Positions 38,991 to 63,850 of a stretch of DNA of 64,000 bases are shown in pieces; within the stretch, counting starts at the first letter, position 1; every line of letters begins with the position of its first letter. The stretch comes from Siphonodentalium dalli. Taxonomy: Eukaryota > Mollusca > Scaphopoda > Gadilida > Siphonodentaliidae. The translations under genes and the position numbers were made by a program. The notes under the pieces are model-generated. The model saw nothing but the letters and a program-made list of their open reading frames with translations, made no database searches and was not told where the DNA came from. The stretch lies in assembly GCA_032622095.1 (NCBI GenBank), contig CP136064.1, positions 249,707,827 to 249,771,826 on the forward strand. Reading direction: 5' to 3'.

Positions 38991-40109
38991 TAGGTCGGTA
39001 TTCTTGAAAAGTAAGACGGTTGTGAAACAATCTGAAATCTTTTCGTTCAGCCCATGCCGATATTCTATGATATGGCCTACATACATTTCCAAATATTTAA
39101 AGATACGTAGATACGTGGATAGGCAACTGTTTACTCCAAACGGGGTGTTCTCACCATCAATATTTGTTTGTAGATTCCATATTGTGCTAGTTATTAAAAC
39201 TAGAAAGATAATCTTTCAACTACGAATTGTACTCGTAGTTTGTGAGCATTATGTCATATTACGTAATCCCAGTGGCTGCAGTCTGGCCATCATCAGCCAA
39301 TTAATTAATGTAATTCTAATATTAATGTGTTATTGGAAATGTGTGACATTCTTGTCATGCGTTTGCTGAATTTGAAGTTCGCCATTAACAGTGGTTATTG
39401 ATATTTAGACGAAAAGGAGTTATGTTTCGAAAACAATACATCAAACAATATACTAATAAAGGAACACATCCCTAATAAGATACCCATATAGCTAAAGACT
39501 CAGAAACGCAAACAAAACATTGTAGTAATCGTTTACGCTAAAGTAAATGCAATTTCCAACTTTTATTTTGTTCGGTAGGGAACAGTGATTGCATGTAGGA
39601 AATGATACTCACAGTTGTTCGTTTGGTTACCTGCAATGTTAGATTGATAGCAAGTGAGTGGTCATCTATGAGTCTGTTGGTGATGTGGACTCATCATATA
39701 AATTGGTGAAATAAGTAACTAGGCATTATCTCACATGATAGTTTAGCGCCCAGTGTGGATGTGTTGATGTATACTATAAATTGAGATCCAACTACTGAGG
39801 AATCTTAAAACATATTAGGAGATTCATGCTGCTGAAAATTAATAGAGTATGGTCAGTTTTAATGCCTAATACGAGACGCATGACTATAATATAATATTCT
39901 TCACAAAAGCTGTAAGGACTAAATTCGAAACAATGAACACGTTTAAGCTTATGCGGGGTGTCTCTGTTTGCGAATAAATCGTGCTCAAAAAGGTAATTGT
40001 GTCAACATTGTTGTTAAAGCGGTAATCTTTAAACGAACAGACTCAAACAAGAAAGAAAATCAAACTCAGTTTTCGACATTTAGTTTTCCAAACCATGCTC
40101 CATAATTCC
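38991..40109 (-). repeat. Array unit 1 (truncated, no EGF exon)
   Basis: The left edge meets the LINE fragment. An internal deletion at about 39,312 joins CCAATTAATTAATG directly to sequence found at about 41,252 in the next unit, removing the EGF exon but keeping the microexon. Confidence 0.85.
39613..39630 (-). CDS. Microexon 1 (18 nt)
   Basis: GTAACCAAACGAACAACT between acceptor CTAACATTGCAG and donor GTGAGTATC. The leading GT joins the T of the preceding EGF exon to make TGT, the missing C6. The rest codes NQTNN, and the final T joins AC of the next exon to make Tyr. This last copy splices to the mucin exon across a 2,363-bp intron that holds the LINE fragment. Confidence 0.65.
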
Positions 40110-41060
40110 GGGGGGGGGGGGTAAATTGCATCGGTATTCTCCAAAAATAATTAGATTTAGTTTATGTTCAAACAGGTCAGTATTCTTGAAAAGTAACACG
40201 GTTGTGAAACAATCTGAAATCTTTTCGTTCAGCCAATGCCGATATTCTATGGTATGGCCTACATACATTTACAAATATTTAAAGATACGTAGATACGTGG
40301 ATAGACAACTTTTTACTCCAAACTGGGTGTTCGCACCATTAATATTTGTTTGTATATTCCATATTGTGCTAGTTATTAAAACTGGAAAGATAATCTTTCA
40401 ACTACGAATTGTACTCGTAGTTTGTGAGCATTATGTCATATTACGTAATCCCAGTGGCTGCAGTCTGGCCGTCATCAGCCAATTAATTAATGCATGTATT
40501 TATGTAACAACGCGATATCTACGCTCCATGCCCATTGATACTGACATGACTTAATATCCGGCCAAATTGACCACGTGAATATATTATATAATTACTTCAA
40601 AATAGGCTCCTTTTTGTGCTGAAATTCGCTGCTATGAAAAAATGCACACCGAGAACGGAACATACATGTATAACTACCTATAACGAGACGTAACGGCATT
40701 CACGTGATTACACAGTGTGTATTGTGATTTCAATCACACCATCGTCACGAACTATAAATATTAATTTTCTTACATGGACGATTTGGTTGAGAATTGGTCA
40801 TTTTTACTTTTGAGTACTTCTGTGATTATCAGCTATCGATATATGGTTATCAGAGTTACATCAATGCTCACAATACATATGATGAATAATTGTTTATTTT
40901 AATTTACCTTGCACACAGCTTATCTGGGGATGCTTCAGTTTGCAAATCAATCGTTTTAAAAACGGTAAAATATTGATTCCATTATAAACCAGGTTGACGA
41001 TTTATTTAACAAAATGACCTGTATTTACCCAATATATAAATATATACTCGCTATACTCAC

Positions 41061-41171
41061 ATCTGTTTCCGGTCCATCCAGTGTAGCAATAGCAGGTGTA
41101 GTTTCCGTCCATACTGTTATCACCGCAAGAGCCGTGATCTCCACAAGGGTTATACACGCATGGTGACGTGT
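41061..41171 (-). CDS. EGF exon 1 (type A)
   Basis: 111 nt, phase 1-1. It encodes TSPC-VYNPC-GDHGSC-GDNSMDGNYTC-YC-YTGWTGNR plus the first base of the C6 codon. Spacing of the six Cys, the G-W-T-G turn and the aromatic before C4 are those of a laminin/Notch-style EGF without calcium ligands. Acceptor TTTTCAACAG, donor T|GTGAGT. This is the membrane-proximal EGF. Its C6 is completed by microexon 1, 1,430 bp downstream. Confidence 0.8.
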
Positions 41172-41546
41172 CTGTTGAAAACAAGGAACCCGGCTTTAAA
41201 GTGTGGTTAATTGATCACAATCTGTTCAAATCTTAGTGTTCTTAATAACTCGAATATTAATGTGTTATTGGAAATGTGTGACATTCTTACCATGCGTTTG
41301 CTGAATTTGACGTTCGCGTCAACAGTGATTATTGATATTTAGACTAAAAAGACATATGATTCGAAAACAATCCATCAAACAATATACTAATAAAGGAACA
41401 CATCCCTAATAAGATACCCATATAGCTAAAGACTCAGAAACGCAAACAAAACATTGTAGTAATCGTTTCCGCTAAAGTAAATGCAATTTCCAACTTTTAT
41501 TTTGTTCGGTAGGGAACAGTGATTGCATGTAGGAAATGATACTCAC

Positions 41547-41564
41547 AGTTGTTCGTTTGGTTAC
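41547..41564 (-). CDS. Microexon 2 (18 nt)
   Basis: Same 18 nt. 375 bp upstream of EGF exon 1; completes C6 of EGF 2. Confidence 0.65.
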
Positions 41565-42287
41565 CTGCAATGTTAGATTGATAGCAAGTGAGTGGTCATC
41601 TATGAGTCTGTTGGTGATGTGGACTCATCATATAAATTGGTGAAATAAGTAACTAGGCATTATCTCACATGATACTTTAGCGCCCAGTGTGGATGGGTTG
41701 ATCATACTATAAATTGATATCCAACTACTGAGGAATCTTAAAACATTATATTAGGAGATTCATGCTGCTGAAAATTAATAGAGTATGGTTAGTGTTAATG
41801 CCTAAAACGAGACGCATGACTATAATATAATATTCTTCACAAAAGCTGTAAGGTCTAAATTCAAAGTGCACAACGAGAACGGAACATACATGTATAACTA
41901 CCTATAACGGGACATAACCACATTCACGTGATTACATGGTGTGTATTGTGATTTCAATCACACCATTATCACGAACTATAAATATAAATTTTCTTACATG
42001 GACGATTTGGTTGAGAATTGGTAATTTTTACTTTTGAGTACTTCTGTGATTATCAGCTGACGATATATGGTTATCAGAGTTACATCAATGCTCACAATAC
42101 ATATGATGATTAATTGTTTATTTTAATTTACCTTGCACACAGCTTATCTGGGGATGCTTCAGTTTGCCGCAAATCAATCGTTTTCAAAACGGTAAAATGT
42201 TGATTCCATTATAAACCAGGTTGACGATTTATTTAACAAAATGACTTGTATTTTCGCAATATATAAATATATACTCGCCATATTCAC

Positions 42288-42395
42288 AGCTGTGTCCTGT
42301 CCATCCAGTGTAGCAATTGCAGGTGTAGTTTCCCATACCGTTATCATAACAAGAGCCGTGATATCCACAAGGGTTATACACGCATGGTGACGTGT
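42288..42395 (-). CDS. EGF exon 2 (type B)
   Basis: 108 nt. Compared with type A: GYHGSC for GDHGSC, YDNGMG for GDNSMDG (one codon shorter), CNC for CYC, and TGHS for TGNR before C6. The donor is GTGAAT, weaker than in type A. All seven type B exons in the window are identical in sequence. Confidence 0.8.
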
Positions 42396-42771
42396 CTGTT
42401 GAAAACAAGGAACCCGGCTTTAAAGTGTGGTTAGTAGATCACAATCTGTACAAGCCTTAATGTTCTTAATAATTCGAATATTAATGTGTTATTGGAAATG
42501 TGTGACATTCTTGCCATGCGTTTGCTGAATTTGAAGTTCGCCATCAACAGTGATTATTGATATTTAGACGAAAAAGAGTTATGATTCGAAAACAATACAT
42601 CAAACAATATACCAATAAAGGAAGACGTACCTAATAAGATACACATATAGCTAAAGACTCAGAAACGCAAACAAAACATTGTAGTAATCGTTTCCGCTAA
42701 AGTAAATGCAATTTCCAACATTTATTTTGTTCGGTAGGGAACAGTGATTGCATGTAGGAAATGATACTCAC

Positions 42772-42789
42772 AGTTGTTCGTTTGGTTAC
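42772..42789 (-). CDS. Microexon 3 (18 nt)
   Basis: 376 bp upstream of EGF exon 2; completes C6 of EGF 3. Acceptor side reads CTACCATTGCAG, the B-half variant. Confidence 0.65.
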
Positions 42790-44223
42790 CTGCAATGGTA
42801 GATTGATAGCAAGTGAGTGGTCATCTATGAGTCTGTTGGTGATGTGGACTCATCGTATAAATTGGTGAAATAAGTAACTAGGCATTATCTCACATGATGG
42901 TTTAGCGCCCCGTGTGGATGGGTTGGTGTATACTATAAATTGAGATCCAACTACTGAGGAATCTTAAAACATTATATTAGGAGAGTCATGCTGCTGAAAA
43001 TTAATAGAGTATGGTCAGTGTTAATGCCTAAAACGAGACGCATGACTATAATATAATATTCTTAACAAAAGTTGTAAGGACTAAATTCGAAACAATGAAC
43101 ACGTTTAAGCTTATGCGGGGTGTCTCTGTTTGCAAATAAATCGTGCCCAAAAAGGTAATTGTGTCATCATTGTTGTCAAAGCGGTCATCTTTAAACGAAC
43201 AGACTCAAACAAGAAAGAAAATCAAACTCAGTTTTGGACATTTAGTTTTCCAAACCATGCTCCATAATTCCGGGGGGGGGGGGGTAAATTGCATCGGAAT
43301 TCTCCAAAAATAATTAGATTTAGTTTATGTTCAAACAGGTCAGTATTCTTGAAAAGTAACACGGTTGTGAAACAATCTGAAATCTTTTCGTTCAGCCAAT
43401 GCCGATATTCTATGGTATGGCCTACATACATTTACAAATATTTAAAGATACGTAGATACGTGGACAGACAACATTTTACTCCAAACTGGGTGTTCGCACC
43501 ATTAATATTTGTTTGTATATTCCATATTGTGCTAGTTATTAAAACTGGAAAGATAATCTTTCAACTACGAATTGTACTCGTAGTTTGTGAGCATTATGTC
43601 ATATTACGTAATCCCAGTGGCTGCAGTCTGGCCGTCATCAGCCAATTAATTAATGCATGTATTTATGTAACAACACGATATCTACGCTCCATGCCCATTG
43701 ATACTGACATGACTTAATATCCGGCCAAATTGACCACGTGCATATATTATATAATTACTTCAACATAGGCTCCTTTATGTGCTGAAATTCGCTGCTATGA
43801 AAAAATGCACACCGAGAACGGAACATACATGTATAACTACCTATAACGAGACGTAACGGCATTCACGTGATTACATATTGTGTATTGTGATTTCAATCAA
43901 ACCATCGTCACGAACTATAAATATTAATTTTCTTACATGGACGATTTGGTTGAGAATTGGTAATTTTTACTTTTGAGTACTTCTGTGATTATCAGCTAAC
44001 GATATATGGTTATCAGAGTTACATCAATGCTCACAATACATATGATGAATAATTGTTTATTTTAATTTACCTTGCACACAGCTTATCTGGGGATGCTTCA
44101 GTTTGCAAATCAATCGTTTTCAAAACGGTAAAATGTTGATTCCATTATAAACCAGGTTGACGATTTATTTAACAAAATGACCTGTATTTACCCAATATAT
44201 AAATATATACTCGCTATACTCAC

Positions 44224-44334
44224 ATCTGTTTCCGGTCCATCCAGTGTAGCAATAGCAGGTGTAGTTTCCGTCCATACTGTTATCACCGCAAGAGCCGTGA
44301 TCTCCACAAGGGTTATACACGCATGGTGACGTGT
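44224..44334 (-). CDS. EGF exon 3 (type A)
   Basis: Identical in sequence to EGF exon 1. Downstream intron 1,434 bp to microexon 3. Confidence 0.8.
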
Positions 44335-44709
44335 CTGTTGAAAACAAGGAACCCGGCTTTAAAGTGTGGTTAATTGATCACAATCTGTTCAAATCTTTGT
44401 GTTCTTAATAACTCGAATATTAATGTGTTATTGGAAATGTGTGACATTCTTACCATGCGTTTGCTGAATTTGACGTTCGCGTCAACAGTGATTATTGATA
44501 TTTAGACTAAAAAGACATATGATTCGAAAACAATCCATCAAACAATATACTAATAAAGGAACACATCCCTAATAAGATACCCATATAGCTAAAGACTCAG
44601 AAACGCAAACAAAACATTGTAGTAATCGTTTCCGCTAAAGTAAATGCAATTTCCAACTTTTATTTTGTTCGGTAGGGAACAGTGATTGCATGTAGGAAAT
44701 GATACTCAC

Positions 44710-44727
44710 AGTTGTTCGTTTGGTTAC
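44710..44727 (-). CDS. Microexon 4 (18 nt)
   Basis: Upstream of EGF exon 3; completes C6 of EGF 4. Confidence 0.65.
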
Positions 44728-45450
44728 CTGCAATGTTAGATTGATAGCAAGTGAGTGGTCATCTATGAGTCTGTTGGTGATGTGGACTCATCATATAAAT
44801 TGGTGAAATAAGTAACTAGGCATTATCTCACATGATACTTTAGCGCCCAGTGTGGATGGGTTGATCATACTATAAATTGATATCCAACTACTGAGGAATC
44901 TTAAAACATTATATTAGGAGATTCATGCTGCTGAAAATTAATAGAGTATGGTTAGTGTTAATGCCTAAAACGAGACGCATGACTATAATATAATATTCTT
45001 CACAAAAGCTGTAAGGTCTAAATTCAAAGTGCACAACGAGAACGGAACATACATGTATAACTACCTATAACGGGACATAACCACATTCACGTGATTACAT
45101 GGTGTGTATTGTGATTTCAATCACACCATTATCACGAACTATAAATATAAATTTTCTTACATGGACGATTTGGTTGAGAATTGGTAATTTTTACTTTTGA
45201 GTACTTCTGTGATTATCAGCTGACGATATATGGTTATCAGAGTTACATCAATGCTCACAATACATATGATGATTAATTGTTTATTTTAATTTACCTTGCA
45301 CACAGCTTATCTGGGGATGCTTCAGTTTGCCGCAAATCAATCGTTTTCAAAACGGTAAAATGTTGATTCCATTATAAACCAGGTTGACGATTTATTTAAC
45401 AAAATGACTTGTATTTTCGCAATATATAAATATATACTCGCCATATTCAC

Positions 45451-45558
45451 AGCTGTGTCCTGTCCATCCAGTGTAGCAATTGCAGGTGTAGTTTCCCATA
45501 CCGTTATCATAACAAGAGCCGTGATATCCACAAGGGTTATACACGCATGGTGACGTGT
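45451..45558 (-). CDS. EGF exon 4 (type B)
   Basis: Identical to EGF exon 2. Intron of 723 bp to microexon 4. Confidence 0.8.
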
Positions 45559-45934
45559 CTGTTGAAAACAAGGAACCCGGCTTTAAAGTGTGGTTAGTAG
45601 ATCACAATCTGTACAAGCCTTAATGTTCTTAATAATTCGAATATTAATGTGTTATTGGAAATGTGTGACATTCTTGCCATGCGTTTGCTGAATTTGAAGT
45701 TCGCCATCAACAGTGATTATTGATATTTAGACGAAAAAGAGTTATGATTCGAAAACAATACATCAAACAATATACCAATAAAGGAAGACGTACCTAATAA
45801 GATACACATATAGCTAAAGACTCAGAAACGCAAACAAAACATTGTAGTAATCGTTTCCGCTAAAGTAAATGCAATTTCCAACATTTATTTTGTTCGGTAG
45901 GGAACAGTGATTGCATGTAGGAAATGATACTCAC

Positions 45935-45952
45935 AGTTGTTCGTTTGGTTAC
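45935..45952 (-). CDS. Microexon 5 (18 nt)
   Basis: Upstream of EGF exon 4; completes C6 of EGF 5. Confidence 0.65.
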
Positions 45953-47390
45953 CTGCAATGGTAGATTGATAGCAAGTGAGTGGTCATCTATGAGTCTGTT
46001 GGTGATGTGGACTCATCGTATAAATTGGTGAAATAAGTAACTAGGCATTATCTCACATGATGGTTTAGCGCCCCGTGTGGATGGGTTGGTGTATACTATA
46101 AATTGAGATCCAACTACTGAGGAATCTTAAAACATTATATTAGGAGAGTCATGCTGCTGAAAATTAATAGAGTATGGTCAGTGTTAATGCCTAAAACGAG
46201 ACGCATGACTATAATATAATATTCTTAACAAAAGTTGTAAGGACTAAATTCGAAACAATGAACACGTTTAAGCTTATGCGGGGTGTCTCTGTTTGCAAAT
46301 AAATCGTGCCCAAAAAGGTAATTGTGTCATCATTGTTGTCAAAGCGGTCATCTTTAAACGAACAGACTCAAACAAGAAAGAAAATCAAACTCAGTTTTGG
46401 ACATTTAGTTTTCCAAACCATGCTCCATAATTCCGGGGGGGGGGGGTAAATTGCATCGGAATTCTCCAAAAATAATTAGATTTAGTTTATGTTCAAACAG
46501 GTCAGTATTCTTGAAAAGTAACACGGTTGTGAAACAATCTGAAATCTTTTCGTTCAGCCAATGCCGATATTCTATGGTATGGCCTACATACATTTACAAA
46601 TATTTAAAGATACGTAGATACGTGGACAGACAACATTTTACTCCAAACTGGGTGTTCGCACCATTAATATTTGTTTGTATATTCCATATTGTGCTAGTTA
46701 TTAAAACTGGAAAACTAGAAAGATAATCTTTCAACTACGAATTGTACTCGTAGTTTGTGAGCATTATGTCATATTACGTAATCCCAGTGGCTGCAGACTG
46801 GCCGTCATCAGCCAATTAATTAATGCATGTATTTATATAACACGATATCTACGCTCCATGTCCATTGATACTGACATGACTTAATATCGTGCCAAATTGA
46901 CGACGAGAATATTTTATCTAATTACTTCAAATTAGGCTCCTTTTGGTGCTGAAATTCGCTTCTTTGAAAAAATGCACACCGAGAACGGAACATACATGTA
47001 TAACTACCTATAACGGGACATAACCGCATTCAAGTGATTATATAGTGTGTATTGTGATTTCAACCACACCATTGTCACGAACTATAAATATAAATTTTCT
47101 TAAATGGACGATTTGGTTGAGAATTGGTAATTTTTACGCTTGAGTACTTCTGTGGTTATCAGCTATCGATATATGGTTATCAGAGTTACATCAATGCTCA
47201 CAATACATATGATGAATAATTGTTTATTTTAATTTACCTTGCACACAGGTTATCTGGGGATGCTTCAGTTTGCAAATCAATCGTTTTCAAAACGGTAAAA
47301 TGTTGATTCCATTATAAACCAGGTTGACGATTTATTTAACAAAATGACCTGTATTTACCCAATATATAAATATATACTCGCTATACTCAC

Positions 47391-47498
47391 ATCTGTTTCC
47401 GGTCCATCCAGTGTAGCAATTGCAGGTGTAGTTTCCCATACCGTTATCATAACAAGAGCCGTGATATCCACAAGGGTTATACACGCATGGTGACGTGT
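47391..47498 (-). CDS. EGF exon 5 (hybrid A')
   Basis: First occurrence, from the left, of the hybrid: type B from the start of the exon through CNC, then type A at the end (TGNR, donor GTGAGT). The switch lies between 47,402 and 47,421. Confidence 0.8.
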
Positions 47499-47874
47499 CT
47501 GTTGAAAACAAGGAACCCGGCTTTAAAGTGTGGTTAGTAGATCACAATCTGTACAAGCCTTAATGTTCTTAATAATTCGAATATTAATGTGTTATTGGAA
47601 ATGTGTGACATTATTGCCATGCGTTTGCTGAATTTGAAGTTCGCCATCAACAGTGATTATTGATATTTAGACGAAAAAGAGTTATGATTCGAAAACAATA
47701 CATCAAACAATATACCAATAAAGGAAGACGTACCTAATAAGATACACATATAGCTAAAGACTCAGAAACGCAAACACAACATTGTAGTAATCGTTTCCGC
47801 TAAAGTAAATGCAATTTCCAACTTTTATTTTGTTCGGTATGGAACAGTGATTGCATGTAGGAAATGATACTCAC

Positions 47875-47892
47875 AGTTGTTCGTTTGGTTAC
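47875..47892 (-). CDS. Microexon 6 (18 nt)
   Basis: Upstream of EGF exon 5; completes C6 of EGF 6. Confidence 0.65.
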
Positions 47893-48616
47893 CTGCAATG
47901 TTAGATTGATAGCAAGTGAGTGGTCATCTATGAGTCTGTTGGTGATGTGGACTCATCATATAAATTGGTGAAATAAGTAACTAGGCATTATCTCACATGA
48001 TACTTTAGCGCCCAGTGTGGATGGGTTGATGTATACTATAAATTGATATCCAACTACTGAGGAATCTTAAAACATTATATTAGGAGATTCATGCTGCTGA
48101 AAATTAATAGAGTATGGTTAGTGTTAATGCCTAAAACGAGACGCATGACTATAATATAATATTCTTCACAAAAGCTGTAAGGTCTAAATTCAAAGTGCAC
48201 AACGAGAACGGAACATACATGTATAACTACCTATAACGGGACATAACCACATTCACGTGATTACAAGGTGTGTATTGTGATTTCAATCACACCATTATCA
48301 CGAACTATAAATATAAATTTTCTTACATGGACGATTTGGTTGAGAATTGGTAATTTTTACTTTTGAGTACTTCTGTGATTATCAGCTGACGATATATGGT
48401 TATCAGAGTTACATCAATGCTCACAATACATATGATGATTAATTGTTTATTTTAATTTACCTTGCACACAGCTTATCTGGGGATGCTTCAGTTTGCCGCA
48501 AATCAATCGTTTTCAAAACGGTAAAATGTTGATTCCATTATAAACCAGGTTGACGATTTATTTAACAAAATGACTTGTATTTTCGCAATATATAAATATA
48601 TACTCGCCATATTCAC

Positions 48617-48724
48617 AGCTGTGTCCTGTCCATCCAGTGTAGCAATTGCAGGTGTAGTTTCCCATACCGTTATCATAACAAGAGCCGTGATATCCACAAG
48701 GGTTATACACGCATGGTGACGTGT
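48617..48724 (-). CDS. EGF exon 6 (type B)
   Basis: Type B. Intron of 724 bp to microexon 6. Confidence 0.8.
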
Positions 48725-49100
48725 CTGTTGAAAACAAGGAACCCGTCTTTAAAGTGTGGTTAGTAGATCACAATCTGTACAAGTCTTAATGTTCTTAATA
48801 ATTCGAATATTAATGTGTTATTGGAAATGTGTGACATCCTTGCCATGCGTTTGCTGAATTTGAAGTTCGCCATCAACAGTGATTATTGATATTTAGACGA
48901 AAAAGAGTTATGATTCGAAAACAATACATCAAACAATATACCAATAAAGGAAGACGTACCTAATAAGATACACATATAGCTAAAGACTCAGAAACGCAAA
49001 CAAAACATTGTAGTAATCGTTTCCGCTAAAGTAAATGCAATTTCCAACATTTATTTTGTTCGGTAGGGAACAGTGATTGCATGTAGGAAATGATACTCAC

Positions 49101-49118
49101 AGTTGTTCGTTTGGTTAC
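49101..49118 (-). CDS. Microexon 7 (18 nt)
   Basis: Upstream of EGF exon 6; completes C6 of EGF 7. Confidence 0.65.
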
Positions 49119-50482
49119 CTGCAATGGTAGATTGATAGCAAGTGAGTGGTCATCTATGAGTCTGTTGGTGATGTGGACTCATCGTATAAATTGGTGAAAT
49201 AAGTAACTAGGCATTATCTCACATGATGGTTTAGCGCCCCGTGTGGATGGGTTGGTGTATACTATAAATTTAGATCCAACTACTGAGGAATCTTAAAACA
49301 TTATATTAGGAGAGTCATGCTGCTGAAAATAAATAGAGTATGGTCAGTGTTAATGCCTAAAACGAGACGCATGACTGTAATATAATATTCTTAACAAAAG
49401 TTGTAAGGACTAAATTCGAAACAATGAACACGTTTAAGCTTATGCGGGGTGTCTCTGTTTGCAAATAAATAGTGCCCAAAAAGGTAATTGTGTCATCATT
49501 GTTGTCAAAGCGGTCATCTTTAAACGAACAGACTCAAACAAGAAAGAAAATCAAACTCAGTTTTGGACATTTAGTTTTCCAAACCATGCGCCATAATTCC
49601 GGGGGGGCGGGTAAATTGCATCGGAATTCTCCAAATATAATTAGATTTAGTTTATGTTGAAACAGGTCAGTATTCTTGAGAAGTAACACGGTTGTAAAAC
49701 AATCTGAAATCTTTTCGTTCAGCCCATGCCGATATTCTATGGTATGGCCTACATACATTTCCAATAATATGTGTTTGTATATTCCATATTGTGCTAGTTA
49801 TTAAAACTAGAAAGATAATCTTTCAACTACGAATTGTACTCGTAGTTTGTGAGCATTATGTCATATTACGTAATCCCAGTGGCTGCAGACTGGCCGTCAT
49901 CAGCCAATTAATTAATGCATGTATTTATATAACACGATATCTACGCTCCATGTCCATTGATACTGACATGACTTAATATCGTGCCAAATTGACGACGAGA
50001 ATATTTTATCTAATTACTTCAAATTAGGCTCCTTTTGGTGCTGAAATTCGCTTCTTTGAAAAAATGCACACCGAGAACGGAACATACATGTATAACTACC
50101 TATAACGGGACATAACCGCATTCAAGTGATTATATAGTGTGTATTGTGATTTCAACCACACCATTGTCACGAACTATAAATATAAATTTTCTTAAATGGA
50201 CGATTTGGTTGAGAATTGGTAATTTTTACGCTTGAGTACTTCTGTGGTTATCAGCTATCGATATATGGTTATCAGAGTTACATCAATGCTCACAATACAT
50301 ATGATGAATAATTGTTTATTTTAATTTACCTTGCACACAGGTTATCTGGGGATGCTTCAGTTTGCAAATCAATCGTTTTCAAAACGGTAAAATGTTGATT
50401 CCATTATAAACCAGGTTGACGATTTATTTAACAAAATGACCTGTATTTACCCAATATATAAATATATACTCGCTATACTCAC

Positions 50483-50590
50483 ATCTGTTTCCGGTCCATC
50501 CAGTGTAGCAATTGCAGGTGTAGTTTCCCATACCGTTATCATAACAAGAGCCGTGATATCCACAAGGGTTATACACGCATGGTGACGTGT
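50483..50590 (-). CDS. EGF exon 7 (hybrid A')
   Basis: Same as EGF exon 5. Downstream intron 1,364 bp, shorter than in units 2-4 because the ~71-bp block is absent. Confidence 0.8.
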
Positions 50591-50966
50591 CTGTTGAAAA
50601 CAAGGAACCCGGCTTTAAAGTGTGGTTAGTAGATCACAATATGTACAAGCCTTAATGTTCTTAATAATTCGAATATTAATGTGTTATTGGAAATGTGTGA
50701 CATTATTGCCATGCGTTTGCTGAATTTGAAGTTCGCCATCAACAGTGATTATTGATATTTAGACGAAAAAGAGTTATGATTCGAAAACAATACATCAAAC
50801 AATATACCAATAAAGGAAGACGTACCTAATAAGATACACATATAGCTAAAGACTCAGAAACGCAAACACAACATTGTAGTAATCGTTTCCGCTAAAGTAA
50901 ATGCAATTTCCAACTTTTATTTTGTTCGGTAGGGAACAGTGATTGCATGTAGGAAATGATACTCAC

Positions 50967-50984
50967 AGTTGTTCGTTTGGTTAC
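50967..50984 (-). CDS. Microexon 8 (18 nt)
   Basis: Upstream of EGF exon 7; completes C6 of EGF 8. Confidence 0.65.
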
Positions 50985-51708: not shown

Positions 51709-51816
51709 AGCTGTGTCCTGTCCATCCAGTGTAGCAATTGCAGGTGTAGTTTCCCATACCGTTATCATAACAAGAGCCGTGATATCCACAAGGGTTATAC
51801 ACGCATGGTGACGTGT
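51709..51816 (-). CDS. EGF exon 8 (type B)
   Basis: Type B. Intron of 724 bp to microexon 8. Confidence 0.8.
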
Positions 51817-52192
51817 CTGTTGAAAACAAGGAACCCGTCTTTAAAGTGTGGTTAGTAGATCACAATCTGTACAAGTCTTAATGTTCTTAATAATTCGAAT
51901 ATTAATGTGTTATTGGAAATGTGTGACATCCTTGCCATGCGTTTGCTGAATTTGAAGTTCGCCATCAACAGTGATTATTGATATTTAGACGAAAAAGAGT
52001 TATGATTCGAAAACAATACATCAAACAATATACCAATAAAGGAAGACGTACCTAATAAGATACACATATAGCTAAAGACTCAGAAACGCAAACAAAACAT
52101 TGTAGTAATCGTTTCCGCTAAAGTAAATGCAATTTCCAACATTTATTTTGTTCGGTAGGGAACAGTGATTGCATGTAGGAAATGATACTCAC

Positions 52193-52210
52193 AGTTGTTC
52201 GTTTGGTTAC
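52193..52210 (-). CDS. Microexon 9 (18 nt)
   Basis: Upstream of EGF exon 8; completes C6 of EGF 9. Confidence 0.65.
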
Positions 52211-53573: not shown

Positions 53574-53681
53574 ATCTGTTTCCGGTCCATCCAGTGTAGC
53601 AATTGCAGGTGTAGTTTCCCATACCGTTATCATAACAAGAGCCGTGATATCCACAAGGGTTATACACGCATGGTGACGTGT
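53574..53681 (-). CDS. EGF exon 9 (hybrid A')
   Basis: Same as EGF exon 5. Intron of 1,363 bp to microexon 9. Confidence 0.8.
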
Positions 53682-54057
53682 CTGTTGAAAACAAGGAACC
53701 CGGCTTTAAAGTGTGGTTAGTAGATCACAATCTGTACAAGCCTTAATGTTCTTAATAATTCGAATATTAATGTGTTATTGGAAATGTGTGACATTATTGC
53801 CATGCGTTTGCTGAATTTGAAGTTCGCCATCAACAGTGATTATTGATATTTAGACGAAAAAGAGTTATGATTCGAAAACAATACATCAAACAATATACCA
53901 ATAAAGGAAGACGTACCTAATAAGATACACATATAGCTAAAGACTCAGAAACGCAAACACAACATTGTAGTAATCGTTTCCGCTAAAGTAAATGCAATTT
54001 CCAACTTTTATTTTGTTCGGTAGGGAACAGTGATTGCATGTAGGAAATGATACTCAC

Positions 54058-54075
54058 AGTTGTTCGTTTGGTTAC
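54058..54075 (-). CDS. Microexon 10 (18 nt)
   Basis: Upstream of EGF exon 9; completes C6 of EGF 10. Confidence 0.65.
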
Positions 54076-54799
54076 CTGCAATGTTAGATTGATAGCAAGT
54101 GAGTGGTCATCTATGAGTCTGTTGGTGATGTGGACTCATCATATAAATTGGTGAAATAAGTAACTAGGCATTATCTCACATGATACTTTAGCGCCCAGTG
54201 TGGATGGGTTGATGTATACTATAAATTGATATCCAACTACTGAGGAATCTTAAAACATTATATTAGGAGATTCATGCTGCTGAAAATTAATAGAGTATGG
54301 TTAGTGTTAATGCCTAAAACGAGACGCATGACTATAATATAATATTCTTCACAAAAGCTGTAAGGTCTAAATTCAAAGTGCACAACGAGAACGGAACATA
54401 CATGTATAACTACCTATAACGGGACATAACCACATTCACGTGATTACATGGTGTGTATTGTGATTTCAATCACACCATTATCACGAACTATAAATATAAA
54501 TTTTCTTACATGGACGATTTGGTTGAGAATTGGTAATTTTTACTTTTGAGTACTTCTGTGATTATCAGCTGACGATATATGGTTATCAGAGTTACATCAA
54601 TGCTCACAATACATATGATGATTAATTGTTTATTTTAATTTACCTTGCACACAGCTTATCTGGGGATGCTTCAGTTTGCCGCAAATCAATCGTTTTCAAA
54701 ACGGTAAAATGTTGATTCCATTATAAACCAGGTTGACGATTTATTTAACAAAATGACTTGTATTTTCGCAATATATAAATATATACTCGCCATATTCAC

Positions 54800-54907
54800 A
54801 GCTGTGTCCTGTCCATCCAGTGTAGCAATTGCAGGTGTAGTTTCCCATACCGTTATCATAACAAGAGCCGTGATATCCACAAGGGTTATACACGCATGGT
54901 GACGTGT
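54800..54907 (-). CDS. EGF exon 10 (type B)
   Basis: Type B. Intron of 724 bp to microexon 10. Confidence 0.8.
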
Positions 54908-55283
54908 CTGTTGAAAACAAGGAACCCGTCTTTAAAGTGTGGTTAGTAGATCACAATCTGTACAAGTCTTAATGTTCTTAATAATTCGAATATTAATGTG
55001 TTATTGGAAATGTGTGACATCCTTGCCATGCGTTTGCTGAATTTGAAGTTCGCCATCAACAGTGATTATTGATATTTAGACGAAAAAGAGTTATGATTCG
55101 AAAACAATACATCAAACAATATACCAATAAAGGAAGACGTACCTAATAAGATACACATATAGCTAAAGACTCAGAAACGCAAACAAAACATTGTAGTAAT
55201 CGTTTCCGCTAAAGTAAATGCAATTTCCAACATTTATTTTGTTCGGTAGGGAACAGTGATTGCATGTAGGAAATGATACTCAC

Positions 55284-55301
55284 AGTTGTTCGTTTGGTTA
55301 C
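55284..55301 (-). CDS. Microexon 11 (18 nt)
   Basis: Upstream of EGF exon 10; completes C6 of EGF 11 across the MITE-bearing intron. Confidence 0.65.
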
Positions 55302-56379
55302 CTGCAATGGTAGATTGATAGCAAGTGAGTGGTCATCTATGAGTCTGTTGGTGATGTGGACTCATCGTATAAATTGGTGAAATAAGTAACTAGGCATTAT
55401 CTCACATGATGGTTTAGCGCCCCGTGTGGATGGGTTGGTGTATACTATAAATTGAGATCCAACTACTGAGGAATCTTAAAACATTATATTAGGAGAGTCA
55501 TGCTGCTGAAAATTAATAGAGTATGGTCAGTGTTAATGCCTAAAACGAGACGCATGACTATAATATAATATTCTTAACAAAAGTTGTAAGGACTAAATTC
55601 GAAACAATGAACACGTTTAAGCTTATGCGGGGTGTCTCTGTTTGCAAATAAATAGTGCCCAAAAAGGTAATTGTGTCATCATTGTTGTCAAAGCGGTCAT
55701 CTTTAAACGAACAGACTCAAACAAGAAAGAAAATCAAACTCAGTTTTGGACATTTAGTTTTCCAAACCATGCGCCATAATTCCGGGGGGGGGGGGTAAAT
55801 TGCATCGGAATTCTCCAAATATAATTAGATTTAGTTTATGTTGAAACAGGTCAGTATTCTTGAGAAGTAACACGGTTGTAAAACAATCTGAAATATTTTC
55901 GTTCAGCCCATGCCGATATTCTATGGTATGGCCTACATACATTTCCAATAATATGTGTTTGTAGATTCCATATTGTGCTAGTTATTAAAACTAGAAAGAT
56001 AATCTTTCAACTACGAATTGTACTCGTAGTTTGTGAGCATTATGTCATATTACGTAATCCCAGTGGCTGCAGACTGGCCGTCATCAGCCAATTAATTAAT
56101 GCATGTATTTATATAACACGATATCTACGCTCCATGTCCATTGATACTGACATGACTTAATATCGTGCCAAATTGACGACGAGAATATTTTATCTAATTA
56201 CTTCAAATTAGGCTCCTTTTGGTGCTGAAATTCGCTTCTTTGAAAAAATGCACACCGAGAACGGAACATACATGTATAACTACCTATAACGGGACATAAC
56301 CGCATTCAAGTGATTATATAGTGTGTATTGTGATTTCAACCACACCATTGTCACGAACTATAAATATAAATTTTCTTAA

Positions 56380-56873
56380 AGGTACGGTTGGCCTTGGCGG
56401 TGGGTATCCTGTGAAAATAATTCCACCCGTCAAAAACCGCCACAAACAGAAAGAACAACAAAATGTAGACAGACTTTGTCCGTATACAAATAAGAAATAT
56501 CGCATAAACAGTATGTTATGGTCATATTTTTGACCATTGTTATGTAAACAAAAGCCTAAAAAGTTACTTTTCTGGTGTTTGTTTATATTATGATGGTAAA
56601 CATAAAGAGCGTTCTTTGTGGGTGAATTCCTGATATGGAACGAATAAAGAGCGTTTATGTCATTTGTGTGTGATTAGCCAGCAGCATTGTGTTGTCTTCT
56701 GTAACACAATCAGGCTCTTGCTTAGGTAAAATATAGAAAATCTTTATGATAACATGCTGTTTACGCGATGGTCATGGTATATATGAACGAAACTGTATGC
56801 ATTTTAATGTTTTTCTGTTTACGGTGATTGGAAAAAATATGAATATTTTCGACAACTAAGGCCTCACGTGCCT
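56380..56873 (-). mobile_element. MITE family 1, copy d, inside an EGF intron
   Basis: 494 bp, with TTAA at 56,376-56,379 and 56,874-56,877. All other units show the uninterrupted site TTTTCTTAAATGGACG, so both the insertion and the 4-bp duplication are certain. It sits in the intron between EGF exon 11 and microexon 11. Confidence 0.95.
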
Positions 56874-57164
56874 TTAAATGGACGATTTGGTTGAGAATTG
56901 GTAATTTTTACGCTTGAGTACTTCTGTGGTTATCAGCTATCGATATATGGTTATCAGAGTTACATCAATGCTCACAATACATATGATGAATAATTGTTTA
57001 TTTTAATTTACCTTGCACACAGGTTATCTGGGGATGCTTCAGTTTGCAAATCAATCGTTTTCAAAACGGTAAAATGTTGATTCCATTATAAACCAGGTTG
57101 ACGATTTATTTAACAAAATGACCTGTATTTACCCAATATATAAATATATACTCGCTATACTCAC

Positions 57165-57272
57165 ATCTGTTTCCGGTCCATCCAGTGTAGCAATTGCAGG
57201 TGTAGTTTCCCATACCGTTATCATAACAAGAGCCGTGATATCCACAAGGGTTATACACGCATGGTGACGTGT
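57165..57272 (-). CDS. EGF exon 11 (hybrid A', only EGF of unit 7)
   Basis: Hybrid exon whose downstream intron (1,863 bp) carries the family-1 MITE. The following type B cassette on the upstream side is deleted, so its 5' neighbour is EGF exon 12, another A'. Confidence 0.8.
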
Positions 57273-57648
57273 CTGTTGAAAACAAGGAACCCGGCTTTAA
57301 AGTGTGGTTAGTAGATCACAATCTGTACAAGCCTTAATGTTCTTAATAATTCGAATATTAATGTGTTATTGGAAATGTGTGACATTATTGCCATGCGTTT
57401 GCTGAATTTGAAGTTCGCCATCAACAGTGATTATTGATATTTAGACGAAAAAGAGTTATGATTCGAAAACAATACATCAAACAATATACCAATAAAGGAA
57501 GACGTACCTAATAAGATACACATATAGCTAAAGACTCAGAAACGCAAACACAACATTGTAGTAATCGTTTCCGCTAAAGTAAATGCAATTTCCAACTTTT
57601 ATTTTGTTCGGTAGGGAACAGTGATTGCATGTAGGAAATGATACTCAC

Positions 57649-57666
57649 AGTTGTTCGTTTGGTTAC
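57649..57666 (-). CDS. Microexon 12 (18 nt)
   Basis: Upstream of EGF exon 11; completes C6 of EGF 12. It lies about 70-120 bp left of the unequal-crossover point. Confidence 0.65.
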
Positions 57667-59030
57667 CTGCAATGTTAGATTGATAGCAAGTGAGTGGTCA
57701 TCTATGAGTCTGTTGGTGATGTGGACTCATCATATAAATTGGTGAAATAAGTAACTAGGCATTATCTCACATGATGGTTTCGCGCCCCGTGTGGATGGGT
57801 TGGTGTATACTATAAATTGAGATCCAACTACTGAGGAATCTTAAAACATTATATTAGGAGAGTCATGCTGCTGAAAATTAATAGAGTATGGTCAGTGTTA
57901 ATGCCTAAAACGAGACGCATGACTATAATATAATATTCTTAACAAAAGTTGTAAGGACTAAATTCGAAACAATGAACACGTTTAAGCTTATGCGGGGTGT
58001 CTCTGTTTGCAAATAAATAGTGCCCAAAAAGGTAATTGTGTCATCATTGTTGTCAAAGCGGTCATCTTTAAACGAACAGACTCAAACAAGAAAGAAAATC
58101 AAACTCAGTTTTGGACATTTAGTTTTCCAAACCATGCGCCATAATTCCGGGGGGGGGGGTAAATTGCATCGGAATTCTCCAAATATAATTAGATTTAGTT
58201 TATGTTGAAACAGGTCAGTATTCTTGAGAAGTAACACGGTTGTAAAACAATCTGAAATCTTTTCGTTCAGCCCATGCCGATATTCTATGGTATGGCCTAC
58301 ATACATTTCCAATAATATGTGTTTGTAGATTCCATATTGTGCTAGTTATTAAAACTAGAAAGATAATCTTTCAACTACGAATTGTACTCGTAGTTTGTGA
58401 GCATTATGTCATATTACGTAATCCCAGTGGCTGCAGACTGGCCGTCATCAGCCAATTAATTAATGCATGTATTTATATAACACGATATCTACGCTCCATG
58501 TCCATTGATACTGACATGACTTAAAATCGTGCCAAATTGACGACGAGAATATTTTATCTAATTACTTCAAATTAAGCTCCTTTTGGTGCTGAAATTCGCT
58601 TCTTTGAAAAAATGCACACCGAGAACGGAACATACATGTATAACTACCTATAACGGGACATAACCGCATTCAAGTGATTATATAGTGTGTATTGTGATTT
58701 CAACCACACCATTGTCACGAACTATAAATATAAATTTTCTTAAATGGACGATTTGGTTGAGAATTGGTAATTTTTACGCTTGAGTACTTCTGTGGTTATC
58801 AGCTATCGATATATGGTTATCAGAGTTACATCAATGCTCACAATACATATGATGAATAATTGTTTATTTTAATTTACCTTGCACACAGGTTATCTGGGGA
58901 TGCTTCAGTTTGCAAATCAATCGTTTTCAAAACGGTAAAATGTTGATTCCATTATAAACCAGGTTGACGATTTATTTAACAAAATGACCTGTATTTACCC
59001 AATATATAAATATATACTCGCTATACTCAC

Positions 59031-59138
59031 ATCTGTTTCCGGTCCATCCAGTGTAGCAATTGCAGGTGTAGTTTCCCATACTGTTATCATAACAAGAGCC
59101 GTGATATCCACAAGGGTTATACACGCATGGTGACGTGT
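59031..59138 (-). CDS. EGF exon 12 (hybrid A', Ser variant)
   Basis: A' exon with one substitution: AAC-AGT for AAC-GGT, giving DNSMG instead of DNGMG in the C3-C4 loop. It is the only coding difference among the six A' copies. Confidence 0.8.
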
Positions 59139-59514
59139 CTGTTGAAAACAAGGAACCCGGCTTTAAAGTGTGGTTAGTAGATCACAATCTGTACAAGCCT
59201 TAATGTTCTTAATAATTCGAATATTAATGTGTTATTGGAAATGTGTGACATTATTGCCATGCGTTTGCTGAATTTGAAGTTCGCCATCAACAGTGATTAT
59301 TGATATTTAGACGAAAAAGAGTTATGATTCGAAAACAATACATCAAACAATATACCAATAAAGGAAGACGTACCTAATAAGATACACATATAGCTAAAGA
59401 CTCAGAAACGCAAACACAACATTGTAGTAATCGTTTCCGCTAAAGTAAATGCAATTTCCAACTTTTATTTTGTTCGGTAGGGAACAGTGATTGCATGTAG
59501 GAAATGATACTCAC

Positions 59515-59532
59515 AGTTGTTCGTTTGGTTAC
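59515..59532 (-). CDS. Microexon 13 (18 nt)
   Basis: Upstream of EGF exon 12; completes C6 of EGF 13. Confidence 0.65.
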
Positions 59533-60256
59533 CTGCAATGTTAGATTGATAGCAAGTGAGTGGTCATCTATGAGTCTGTTGGTGATGTGGACTCATCATA
59601 TAAATTGGTGAAATAAGTAACTAGGCATTATCTCACATGATACTTTAGCGCCCAGTGTGGATGGGTTGATGTATACTATAAATTGATATCCAACTACTGA
59701 GGAATCTTAAAACATTATATTAGGAGATTCATGCTGCTGAAAATTAATAGAGTATGGTTAGTGTTAATGCCTAAAACGAGACGCATGACTATAATATAAT
59801 ATTCTTCACAAAAGCTGTAAGGTCTAAATTCAAAGTGCACAACGAGAACGGAACATACATGTATAACTACCTATAACGGGACATAACCACATTCACGTGA
59901 TTACATGGTGTGTATTGTGATTTCAATCACACCATTATCACGAACTATAAATATAAATTTTCTTACATGGACGATTTGGTTGAGAATTGGTAATTTTTAC
60001 TTTTGAGTACTTCTGTGATTATCAGCTGACGATATATGGTTATCAGAGTTACATCAATGCTCACAATACATATGATGATTAATTGTTTATTTTAATTTAC
60101 CTTGCACACAGCTTATCTGGGGATGCTTCAGTTTGCCGCAAATCAATCGTTTTCAAAACGGTAAAATGTTGATTCCATTATAAACCAGGTTGACGATTTA
60201 TTTAACAAAATGACTTGTATTTTCGCAATATATAAATATATACTCGCCATATTCAC

Positions 60257-60364
60257 AGCTGTGTCCTGTCCATCCAGTGTAGCAATTGCAGGTGTAGTTT
60301 CCCATACCGTTATCATAACAAGAGCCGTGATATCCACAAGGGTTATACACGCATGGTGACGTGT
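60257..60364 (-). CDS. EGF exon 13 (type B)
   Basis: Type B. Intron of 724 bp to microexon 13. Confidence 0.8.
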
Positions 60365-60740
60365 CTGTTGAAAACAAGGAACCCGTCTTTAAAGTGTGGT
60401 TAGTAGATCACAATCTGTACAAGTCTTAATGTTCTTAATAATTCGAATATTAATGTGTTATTGGAAATGTGTGACATCCTTGCCATGCGTTTGCTGAATT
60501 TGAAGTTCGCCATCAACAGTGATTATTGATATGCAGACGAAAAAGAGTTATGATTCGAAAACAATACATCAAACAATATACCAATAAAGGAAGACGTACC
60601 TAATAAGATACACATATAGCTAAAGACTCAGAAACGCAAACAAAACATTGTAGTAATCGTTTCCGCTAAAGTAAATGCAATTTCCAACATTTATTTTGTT
60701 CGGTAGGGAACAGTGATTGCATGTAGGAAATGATACTCAC

Positions 60741-60758
60741 AGTTGTTCGTTTGGTTAC
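60741..60758 (-). CDS. Microexon 14 (18 nt)
   Basis: Upstream of EGF exon 13; completes C6 of EGF 14. Confidence 0.65.
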
Positions 60759-62122
60759 CTGCAATGGTAGATTGATAGCAAGTGAGTGGTCATCTATGAG
60801 TCTGTTGGTGATGTGGACTCATCGTATAAATTGGTGAAATAAGTAACTAGGCATTATCTCACATGATGGTTTAGCGCCCCGTGTGGATGGGTTGGTGTAT
60901 ACTATAAATTGAGATCCAACTACTGAGGAATCTTAAAACATTATATTAGGAGAGTCATGCTGCTGAAAATTAATAGAGTATGGTCAGTGTTAATGCCTAA
61001 AACGAGACACATGACTATAATATAATATTCTTAACAAAAGTTGTAAGGACTAAATTCGAAACAATGAACACGTTTAAGCTTATGCGGGGTGTCTCTGTTT
61101 GCAAATAAATAGTGCCCAAAAAGGTAATTGTGTCATCATTGTTGTCAAAGCGGTCATCTTTAAACGAACAGACTCAAACAAGAAAGAAAATCAAACTCAG
61201 TTTTGAACATTTAGTTTTCCAAACCATGCGCCATAATTCCGGGGGGGGGGGTAAATTGCATCGGAATTCTCCAAATATAATTAGATTTAGTTTATGTTGA
61301 AACAGGTCAGTATTCTTGAGAAGTAACACGGTTGTAAAACAATCTGAAATCTTTTCGTTCAGCCCATGCCGATATTCTATGGTATGGCCTACATACATTT
61401 CCAATAATATGTGTTTGTAGATTCCATATTGTGCTAGTTATTAAAACTAGAAAGATAATCTTTCAACTACGAATTGTACTCGTAGTTTGTGAGCATTATG
61501 TCATATTACGTAATCCCAGTGGCTGCAGACTGGCCGTCATCAGCCAATTAATTAATGCATGTATTTATATAACACGATATCTACGCTCCATGTCCATTGA
61601 TACTGACATGACTTAATATCGTGCCAAATTGACGACGAGAATATTTTATCTAATTACTTCAAATTAGGCTCCTTTTGGTGCTGAAATTCGCTTCTTTGAA
61701 AAAATGCACACCGAGAACGGAACATACATGTATAACTACCTATAACGGGACATAACCGCATTCAAGTGATTATATAGTGTGTATTGTGATTTCAACCACA
61801 CCATTGTCACGAACTATAAATATAAATTTTCTTAAATGGACGATTTGGTTGAGAATTGGTAATTTTTACGCTTGAGTACTTCTGTGGTTATCAGCTATCG
61901 ATATATGGTTATCAGAGTTACATCAATGCTCACAATACATATGATGAATAATTGTTTATTTTAATTTACCTTGCACACAGGTTATCTGGGGATGCTTCAG
62001 TTTGCAAATCAATCGTTTTCAAAACGGTAAAATGTTGATTCCATTATAAACCAGGTTGACGATTTATTTAACAAAATTACCTGTATTTACCCAATATATA
62101 AATATATACTCGCTATACTCAC

Positions 62123-62230
62123 ATCTGTTTCCGGTCCATCCAGTGTAGCAATTGCAGGTGTAGTTTCCCATACCGTTATCATAACAAGAGCCGTGATATC
62201 CACAAGGGTTATACACGCATGGTGACGTGT
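62123..62230 (-). CDS. EGF exon 14 (hybrid A')
   Basis: Same as EGF exon 5. Intron of 1,364 bp to microexon 14. Confidence 0.8.
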
Positions 62231-62606
62231 CTGTTGAAAACAAGGAACCCGGCTTTAAAGTGTGGTTAGTAGATCACAATCTGTACAAGCCTTAATGTTC
62301 TTAATAATTCGAATATTAATGTGTTATTGGAAATGTGTGACATTATTGCCATGCGTTTGCTGAATTTGAAGTTCGCCATCAACAGTGATTATTGATATTT
62401 AGACGAAAAAGAGTTATGATTCGAAAACAATACATCAAACAATATACCAATAAAGGAAGACGTACCTAATAAGATACACATATAGCTAAAGACTCAGAAA
62501 CGCAAACACAACATTGTAGTAATCGTTTCCGCTAAAGTAAATGCAATTTCCAACTTTTATTTTGTTCGGTAGGGAACAGTGATTGCATGTAGGAAATGAT
62601 ACTCAC

Positions 62607-62624
62607 AGTTGTTCGTTTGGTTAC
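62607..62624 (-). CDS. Microexon 15 (18 nt)
   Basis: Upstream of EGF exon 14; completes C6 of EGF 15. Confidence 0.65.
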
Positions 62625-63348
62625 CTGCAATGTTAGATTGATAGCAAGTGAGTGGTCATCTATGAGTCTGTTGGTGATGTGGACTCATCATATACATTGG
62701 TGAAATAAGTAACTAGGCATTATCTCACATGATACTTTAGCGCCCAGTGTGGATGGGTTGATGTATACTATAAATTGATATCCAACTACTGAGGAATCTT
62801 AAAACATTATATTAGGAGATTCATGCTGCTGAAAATTAATAGAGTATGGTTAGTGTTAATGCCTAAAACGAGACGCATGACTATAATATAATATTCTTCA
62901 CAAAAGCTGTAAGGTCTAAATTCAAAGTGCACAACGAGAACGGAACATACATGTATAACTACCTATAACGGGACATAACCACATTCACGTGATTACATGG
63001 TGTGTATTGTGATTTCAATCACACCATTATCACGAACTATACATATAAATTTTCTTACATGGACGATTTGGTTGAGAATTGGTAATTTTTACTTTTGAGT
63101 ACTTCTGTGATTATCAGCTGACGATATATGGTTATCAGAGTTACATCAATGCTCACAATACATATGATGATTAATTGTTTATTTTAATTTACCTTGCACA
63201 CAGCTTATCTGGGGATGCTTCAGTTTGCCGCAAATCAATCGTTTTCAAAACGGTAAAATGTTGATTCCATTATAAACCAGGTTGACGATTTATTTAACAA
63301 AATGACTTGTATTTTCGCAATATATAAATATATACTCGCCATATTCAC

Positions 63349-63456
63349 AGCTGTGTCCTGTCCATCCAGTGTAGCAATTGCAGGTGTAGTTTCCCATACC
63401 GTTATCATAACAAGAGCCGTGATATCCACAAGGGTTATACACGCATGGTGACGTGT
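63349..63456 (-). CDS. EGF exon 15 (type B)
   Basis: The most 5' EGF exon in the window. Type B. Intron of 724 bp to microexon 15. Confidence 0.8.
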
Positions 63457-63832
63457 CTGTTGAAAACAAGGAACCCGTCTTTAAAGTGTGGTTAGTAGAT
63501 CACAATCTGTACAAGTCTTAATGTTCTTAATAATTCGAATATTAATGTGTTATTGGAAATGTGTGACATCCTTGCCATGCGTTTGCTGAATTTGAAGTTC
63601 GCCATCAACAGTGATTATTGATATTTAGACGAAAAAGAGTTATGATTCGAAAACAATACATCAAACAATATACCAATAAAGGAAGACGTACCTAATAAGA
63701 TACACATATAGCTAAAGACTCAGAAACGCAAACAAAACATTGTAGTAATCGTTTCCGCTAAAGTAAATGCAATTTCCAACATTTATTTTGTTCGGTAGGG
63801 AACAGTGATTGCATGTAGGAAATGATACTCAC

Positions 63833-63850
63833 AGTTGTTCGTTTGGTTAC
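63833..63850 (-). CDS. Microexon 16 (18 nt)
   Basis: Most 5' coding piece in the window. It would complete C6 of an EGF exon lying beyond the right edge, so the array continues there. Confidence 0.6.

Follow-up and report, generated by a model that had tools for sequence, protein, structure and literature searches.

The window analysed here is the whole stretch of 64,000 nucleotides (nt) at C4:249707827-249771826 in the 2.23-Gb, 9-contig genome of the scaphopod Siphonodentalium dalli. It holds part of a gene built from tandem exons for epidermal growth factor (EGF) domains, and these exons alternate with an 18-nt segment, GTAACCAAACGAACAACT, that could act as a microexon and supply the end of the codon for the sixth cysteine (C6) of the domain. 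We tentatively favour, at a probability of roughly 0.4, an explanation by donor loss in a tandem EGF array: one class of cassettes would be repaired by the 18-nt exon, and the other would use a GC donor. All features of the array lie on the minus strand; the sequence-only reading of this stretch gave no strand. That reading held that every EGF domain depends on the microexon. Dependence is plausible, judging from the DNA, for the class with a GTGAGT donor inside the C6 codon (38/52 cassettes in the array, 8/15 in the window). It is not supported for all domains, because the claim takes the C6-internal donor as the sole donor, and GCGAGT lies 9 nt further on.

This GC donor was recognized by comparison with other EGF exons of the genome. 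A Pfam EGF search gave 150 matches, those scored among 3146 candidates, and 12 baseline exons from elsewhere in the genome were chosen by position, not at random. In 10 of the 12, the C6 codon is followed by a GT donor at a distance of exactly 7 nt; the distance is 4 nt in one, and one has no nearby exon end. The same position in the array is GCGAGT in 52/52 copies and in an inverted single-EGF copy of the locus, and GT occurs there in none. The frequency of GYRAGT in the region is about 0.1% of positions (about 1 in 1000), array copies counted in. GCGAGT is a donor of the GC-AG type in the same phase as the GT donor upstream, and it retains C6 without the microexon. The product reads C-E-Y-N-TSPC or C-E-Y-D-TSPC, with a six-residue linker. 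Six residues is also the modal linker length in relatives (243/397); 7 residues are found in 28/397 and 9 residues, the length obtained with the microexon, in 2/397. The intron side of the GC donor fits the consensus; on the exon side, position -1 is G in 26/52 and A in 26/52, and position -2 is T. C at +2 of a donor carries a known penalty, GC donors usually compensate by a closer consensus match (PMC2490688), and GC donors have been linked to alternative splicing (PMC2490688, PMC7242645). As for phase-1 GT donors further downstream, one weak ACAG/GTCATT in type A exons (defined below; a slash marks the exon border) was spotted by eye, unscored and without a systematic scan, and was set aside.

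The 52 cassettes fall into three donor classes: T/GTGAGT with A/GCGAGT (26), T/GTGAGT with G/GCGAGT (12), and T/GTGAAT with G/GCGAGT (14). In the window, the corresponding counts are 8, 0, and 7 of 15. Duplex energies with U1, which leave out the penalty for C at +2, were -8.0 kcal/mol for T/GTGAGT (counting pairs upstream of a 2-nt bulge), -6.7 for G/GCGAGT, -3.7 for A/GCGAGT, and -2.3 for T/GTGAAT. The donor of the 18-nt segment gave -7.4, and ten baseline EGF donors of this genome gave -4.9 to -9.2. T/GTGAAT and A/GCGAGT each pair more weakly with U1 than all 10 baseline donors. U1 pairing prefers the cysteine-splitting GTGAGT in 38/52 cassettes and the GC donor in 14/52 (7/15 in the window). 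The GTGAGT classes are therefore expected to split C6 and to require the 18-nt exon, and the GTGAAT class is expected to keep it by the GC donor.

For the array beyond the window, ten additional 10-kb stretches were examined. Within the window, 16 18-nt segments alternate with 15 EGF exons; the whole array, window and flanking stretches together, has 53 segments and 52 EGF exons in strict alternation. The EGF exon that precedes segment 1 lies about 1.3 kb beyond the window. The sequence-only reading described the cassettes correctly: the 18-nt segment is identical in 16/16 window copies, with ttgcag before and gtgagt after each, and the EGF exons end in AGA-T or AGC-T before GTGAGT or GTGAAT (8 and 7 of 15). 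Its codon logic also stands, since T joined to GT of the microexon gives TGT (Cys) and T joined directly to AC of the next EGF exon gives TAC (Tyr). Translation across the joined exons yields ...GNRC-NQTNN-YTSPC..., with the sequons NQT and NYT. EGF exons in the window start at ttttcaacag/AC. Across the array, a length of 108 or 111 nt, a T end, and an AC start are found in 51/52, and the borders are symmetric phase 1, also with the GC donor. The features of the window are as follows, where type A denotes T/GTGAGT and then A/GCGAGT 9 nt on, and type B denotes T/GTGAAT and then G/GCGAGT 9 nt on.

63833..63850, minus strand: 18-nt segment 1 (candidate microexon, phase 1-1, C-NQTNN-Y)
63349..63456, minus strand: EGF exon, type B
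62607..62624, minus strand: 18-nt segment 2
62123..62230, minus strand: EGF exon, type A
60741..60758, minus strand: 18-nt segment 3
60257..60364, minus strand: EGF exon, type B
59515..59532, minus strand: 18-nt segment 4
59031..59138, minus strand: EGF exon, type A
57649..57666, minus strand: 18-nt segment 5
57165..57272, minus strand: EGF exon, type A
55284..55301, minus strand: 18-nt segment 6
54800..54907, minus strand: EGF exon, type B
54058..54075, minus strand: 18-nt segment 7
53574..53681, minus strand: EGF exon, type A
52193..52210, minus strand: 18-nt segment 8
51709..51816, minus strand: EGF exon, type B; acceptor AG of the 12-nt rival exon lost in its intron
50967..50984, minus strand: 18-nt segment 9
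50483..50590, minus strand: EGF exon, type A
49101..49118, minus strand: 18-nt segment 10
48617..48724, minus strand: EGF exon, type B
47875..47892, minus strand: 18-nt segment 11
47391..47498, minus strand: EGF exon, type A
45935..45952, minus strand: 18-nt segment 12
45451..45558, minus strand: EGF exon, type B
44710..44727, minus strand: 18-nt segment 13
44224..44334, minus strand: EGF exon, type A, 111 nt
42772..42789, minus strand: 18-nt segment 14
42288..42395, minus strand: EGF exon, type B
41890..41901, minus strand: 12-nt segment GTAGTTATACAT, an example of the rival candidate exon that would restore the cysteine
41547..41564, minus strand: 18-nt segment 15
41061..41171, minus strand: EGF exon, type A, 111 nt, the last of the array
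41046..41051, minus strand: GCGAGT at the usual donor position of the last EGF exon, 7 nt past its C6 codon
39613..39630, minus strand: 18-nt segment 16, the last, upstream of the mucin-like terminal exon
36825..37249, minus strand: terminal exon (phase-1 acceptor, Ser/Thr-rich mucin-like stretch, hydrophobic C-terminus, stop)

Among the 53 array segments, 49 are identical, two change N to I, one changes Q to E, and one carries a 1-nt insertion; the length is thus 18 nt in 52/53 and 19 nt in one. AG and GTGAGT flank the segment in 53/53 array copies, and the splice dinucleotides are also intact in 2/2 copies at the inverted locus. A genome-wide search with the segment and its splice sites at up to 3 mismatches gave 54 matches, of which 52 were in the array (the insertion copy excluded) and two at the inverted locus. 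The segment is very short, in frame, and flanked by AG and GT, as a microexon is, and it stays in frame after either the upstream GT donor or the GC donor. It is a credible exon of phase 1-1, and its donor is good.

Donors, phases, counts, and conservation are observations on the DNA; the choice of donor and the splicing of the 18-nt exon we infer from them. In the favoured explanation, this would be an animal gene of tandem phase 1-1 EGF exons ending in a mucin-like, probably glycosylphosphatidylinositol (GPI)-anchored tail. Each EGF exon would have its canonical-position donor after C6-E-Y, with GC for GT, plus the upstream GT donor inside the C6 codon. In the simplest history, the canonical position would have held GTGAGT ancestrally, and its change to GC would predate both the split between array and inverted copy and the amplification. 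In the 38/52 T/GTGAGT cassettes, the upstream donor would win, C6 would be split, and the 18-nt exon, which starts with GT, would restore it (C-NQTNN-Y-TSPC). In the 14/52 T/GTGAAT cassettes, the upstream donor would be too weak, and the GC donor would retain C6 in the EGF exon (C-E-Y-D-TSPC); if the 18-nt exon were also included, the product would read C-E-Y-G-NQTNN-Y-TSPC. It is quite improbable that inclusion is further regulated for each cassette; one gene would then switch, in dozens of EGF domains, both the last disulphide and two N-glycosylation sites, with the frame unchanged and the donor class deciding which domains can be switched.

Several points weigh against the favoured explanation. 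In the 12 to 20 kb scanned, no first (N-terminal, 5') exon turned up; a scan of this stretch, upstream of 18-nt segment 1 of the array, for ATG frames that carry a phase-1 donor, as a signal-peptide exon should, gave no convincing candidate. The product of the gene was not found in two protein searches spanning about 335-1070 and 645-2060 residues, length ranges that would miss a full 52-EGF protein (about 2,400 residues by our own count) or a single-EGF protein. What the searches returned were EGF-array proteins at 26 to 41% identity, including fibropellin-1-like proteins. U1 energies and generic splice matrices are no measure of donor usage, and the -8.0 kcal/mol of T/GTGAGT spans the 2-nt bulge. 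The 18 nt with AG and donor show 2 changes against an intron-window mean of 7.4, and 9.7% of windows are as low, so this conservation is only suggestive. The nine-residue linker that the 18-nt exon would create is the rare length among relatives. In the EGF exons, the proportions of nonsynonymous and synonymous differences are about equal (pN 0.047, pS 0.046), and the rate of change (0.33 per site) is close to that of introns (0.25 and 0.41); constraint outside the cysteines is therefore weak.

The most serious alternative, although in our judgement unlikely, is that GC-AG splicing operates throughout, with the GC donor as the end of every EGF exon, C6 always encoded in that exon, and the 18-nt segment left in the intron or inserted optionally. 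The exact canonical position of GCGAGT, its invariance in 52/52 cassettes and the inverted copy, and the modal linker length agree with this, as does the junction codon: G with the acceptor remainder AC encodes Asp, and by reading, 7/12 sampled EGF exons start with an Asp remainder (AC or AT). Yet -1 is A in 26/52 cassettes, where the pairing of -3.7 kcal/mol falls below all 10 baseline donors and a strong GTGAGT lies 9 nt upstream; and the consensus compensation that is usual for GC donors (PMC2490688) is poor here, with T at -2. Somewhat more doubtful is the model of the sequence-only reading, in which every cassette splices at the C6-internal donor and includes the 18-nt exon constitutively. 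Codon logic, phase, and splice sites intact in 53/53 copies speak for it, and in a comparison with solved structures, a product of three EGF domains scored 79.4 bits with the microexon and 61.5 bits when it was skipped (same chain). However, GTGAAT (14/52) is weaker than all 10 baseline donors, the GC donor lies 9 nt on, and a product with a 12-nt exon scored higher still, at 89.4 bits to the same chain. As the 12-nt product outscores the 18-nt product, homology cannot choose between exons. The structure searches were set aside as a judge of this question, since the queries differed in length (127 residues with the microexon, 118 when skipped, and 121 with the 12-nt exon) and the scores argue only for the presence of C6. 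Pfam was set aside as well: PF00008 matched the typed three-EGF product in three stretches, one EGF-like domain per exon, at 44.7 bits with the microexon and 45.0 bits without it, and it is blind to the microexon because the match ends one residue before C6.

The 12-nt segment GTAGTTATACAT in the same intron would supply C6 as C-SYT-Y-TSPC, and we regard it as the least probable source. Scored with generic splice matrices, the 18-nt segment takes 2nd to 5th place in 50/51 introns, each with 37 to 102 in-frame candidates; the 51st, outside that ranking, is presumably the insertion copy. When only cysteine-restoring candidates are counted, the 18-nt segment comes second in 48/51 introns and first in two. 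In the four introns inspected, the top candidate is the 12-nt segment, at 13.4 bits versus 11.4 to 12.6 bits for the 18-nt segment, and its seven-residue linker is commoner in relatives than nine residues (28 versus 2 of 397). The 12-nt segment has, on the other hand, lost a splice dinucleotide in 2/52 cassettes (7 and 45), and it has also lost one in the inverted copy, whose single post-EGF intron still holds an intact 18-nt segment; the 12-nt donor pairs weakly with U1 (-2.2 kcal/mol), and 5 changes over the 20 sites of the 12-nt segment are the ordinary intron rate. The 18-nt candidate is itself only mildly unusual, because in two introns that were shuffled an in-frame cysteine-restoring exon of at least 11.4 bits arose in 18/400 and 29/400 shuffles. 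Its identity alone is no evidence of function, because duplication of the whole cassette is recent and equally few changes are seen in 22% of 18-nt intron windows; conservation was rejected as proof of function, being not significant by either count (22% and 9.7% of windows). Of these two putative exons, the pattern of changes favours the 18-nt segment. An improbable alternative, although less so than the 12-nt exon, is a neutral or decaying array, with direct EGF joining and Tyr for C6, or a locus without a useful protein. The near equality of pN and pS, the exon rate close to the intron rate, and a 1-nt insertion in one EGF exon and in one 18-nt copy are consistent with it. Against it, the EGF exon frame is open, and the five exon-encoded cysteines and the C6 codon are kept, in 51/52, with no stops or cysteine losses in these 51. 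Of 15 variable EGF codons, both cysteine ones vary synonymously. The simulated chance of no stop and no cysteine loss was 0.0015 at 36 events (parsimony count) and 0.04 to 0.06 at 15-18 events, and the EGF exons look constrained at the cysteines. Both frame-breaking insertions fall in cassettes 29 to 31, beyond the window at about 74-80 kb when numbered as in the window. These three have 8, 5, and 7 private 1-nt insertions, compared with 0 or 1 in each of the other 49. Because private insertions are concentrated there, the two frame-breaking ones are probably assembly errors, and cassettes 29 to 31 are probably a low-quality assembly patch inside the tandem array. The mucin-like exon has also kept its frame through length changes in four copies at the inverted locus.

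The 111-nt and GTGAAT types of EGF exon differ by 8.7%, mostly in amino-acid changes between the cysteines, and the introns between the same cassettes differ by 4.3%; diversifying selection or conversion from another source is possible for this excess.

The terminal exon (about 425 nt) follows the last 18-nt segment and an intron, and its acceptor, tattgcag/AC GAA, is in phase 1 and fits the phase of the array. It encodes a stretch rich in Ser and Thr and ends in a hydrophobic tail, which on reading alone resembles a GPI signal. The Ser/Thr-rich sequence of the terminal exon (36825-37249, minus strand) is encoded by a degenerate tandem repeat of about 102 nt. Between the last 18-nt segment and the terminal exon, at 38366-38767 on the plus strand and thus opposite to the gene, sits an open frame that by eye resembles a reverse transcriptase of the long interspersed nuclear element (LINE) type. 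The window gave no Rfam match above gathering scores and no tRNA.

The inverted copy lies about 107 kb from the array, at C4:249931135-249955175, with the same flanks and only one EGF exon. A genome search with the terminal exon gave six matches, five of them at the inverted locus, where they represent four copies. These four tandem mucin-like terminal exons each have their own stop, keep the frame through length changes, and share a common tail; the first lacks the stretch around the acceptor. Amplification struck different exons in the two gene copies, EGF exons in the array and terminal exons at the inverted locus.

The gene resembles fibropellin-like and Notch-like phase 1-1 EGF arrays in having one EGF domain per symmetric exon, and it matches Pfam EGF and Notch and Delta structures. 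It differs from them in the GC at the usual donor position, the GT donor inside the C6 codon, the 52 near-identical copies, and the mucin-like, GPI-like tail. Introns that interrupt the EGF module are known in ErbB-ligand and membrane-mucin EGF modules (PMC1618406); unlike these, the array would have its break within the C6 codon, a break that depends on use of the upstream GT donor. Plant microexons complete conserved domains, for example the 9-nt phase-1 exon of AP2 genes (PMC8831610). In S. dalli, too, a tiny in-frame phase-1 exon would supply conserved domain residues, but this is an animal gene with a candidate exon once per domain and a competing donor that may make it unnecessary. In schistosome micro-exon genes, the coding region consists mostly of very small symmetric exons (PMC4350168). 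The common ground is the presence of tiny symmetric exons in genes for secreted or surface proteins, although the 18-nt exon alternates with EGF exons of 108/111 nt and the terminal exon has about 425 nt, so the coding region is not of that composition. As in GC-AG introns (PMC2490688, PMC7242645), GC is found at the canonical-position donor with the intron-side consensus GCGAGT intact; unlike in these, the match on the exon side is poor, with T at -2 followed by A or G, and there is an overlapping GT donor 9 nt upstream. Recursive-splicing exons are repressed by the exon junction complex (PMC6224609). The 18-nt segment likewise starts with a donor-like sequence, CAG/GTAACC (7.2 bits), but the donor rebuilt at the junction of EGF exon and microexon, GAT/GTAACC, is weak (-1.9 kcal/mol, compared with -7.4 for the donor of the segment itself). 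Since the rebuilt donor pairs poorly with U1, recursive removal would not be expected and was rejected as an explanation. Among the titles and abstract openings listed by searches of one collection of papers, none described a microexon that completes an EGF cysteine.

If the GC donor is used, the locus is a warning that gene models restricted to GT donors can invent a dependence on microexons. The 52 near-identical cassettes with natural donor variants are a ready-made test of competition between 5' splice sites. If the GTGAGT class needs the microexon, the locus would record tolerated donor damage, in which splicing moved into the codon of a structural cysteine and the microexon made good the loss in one copy after another.

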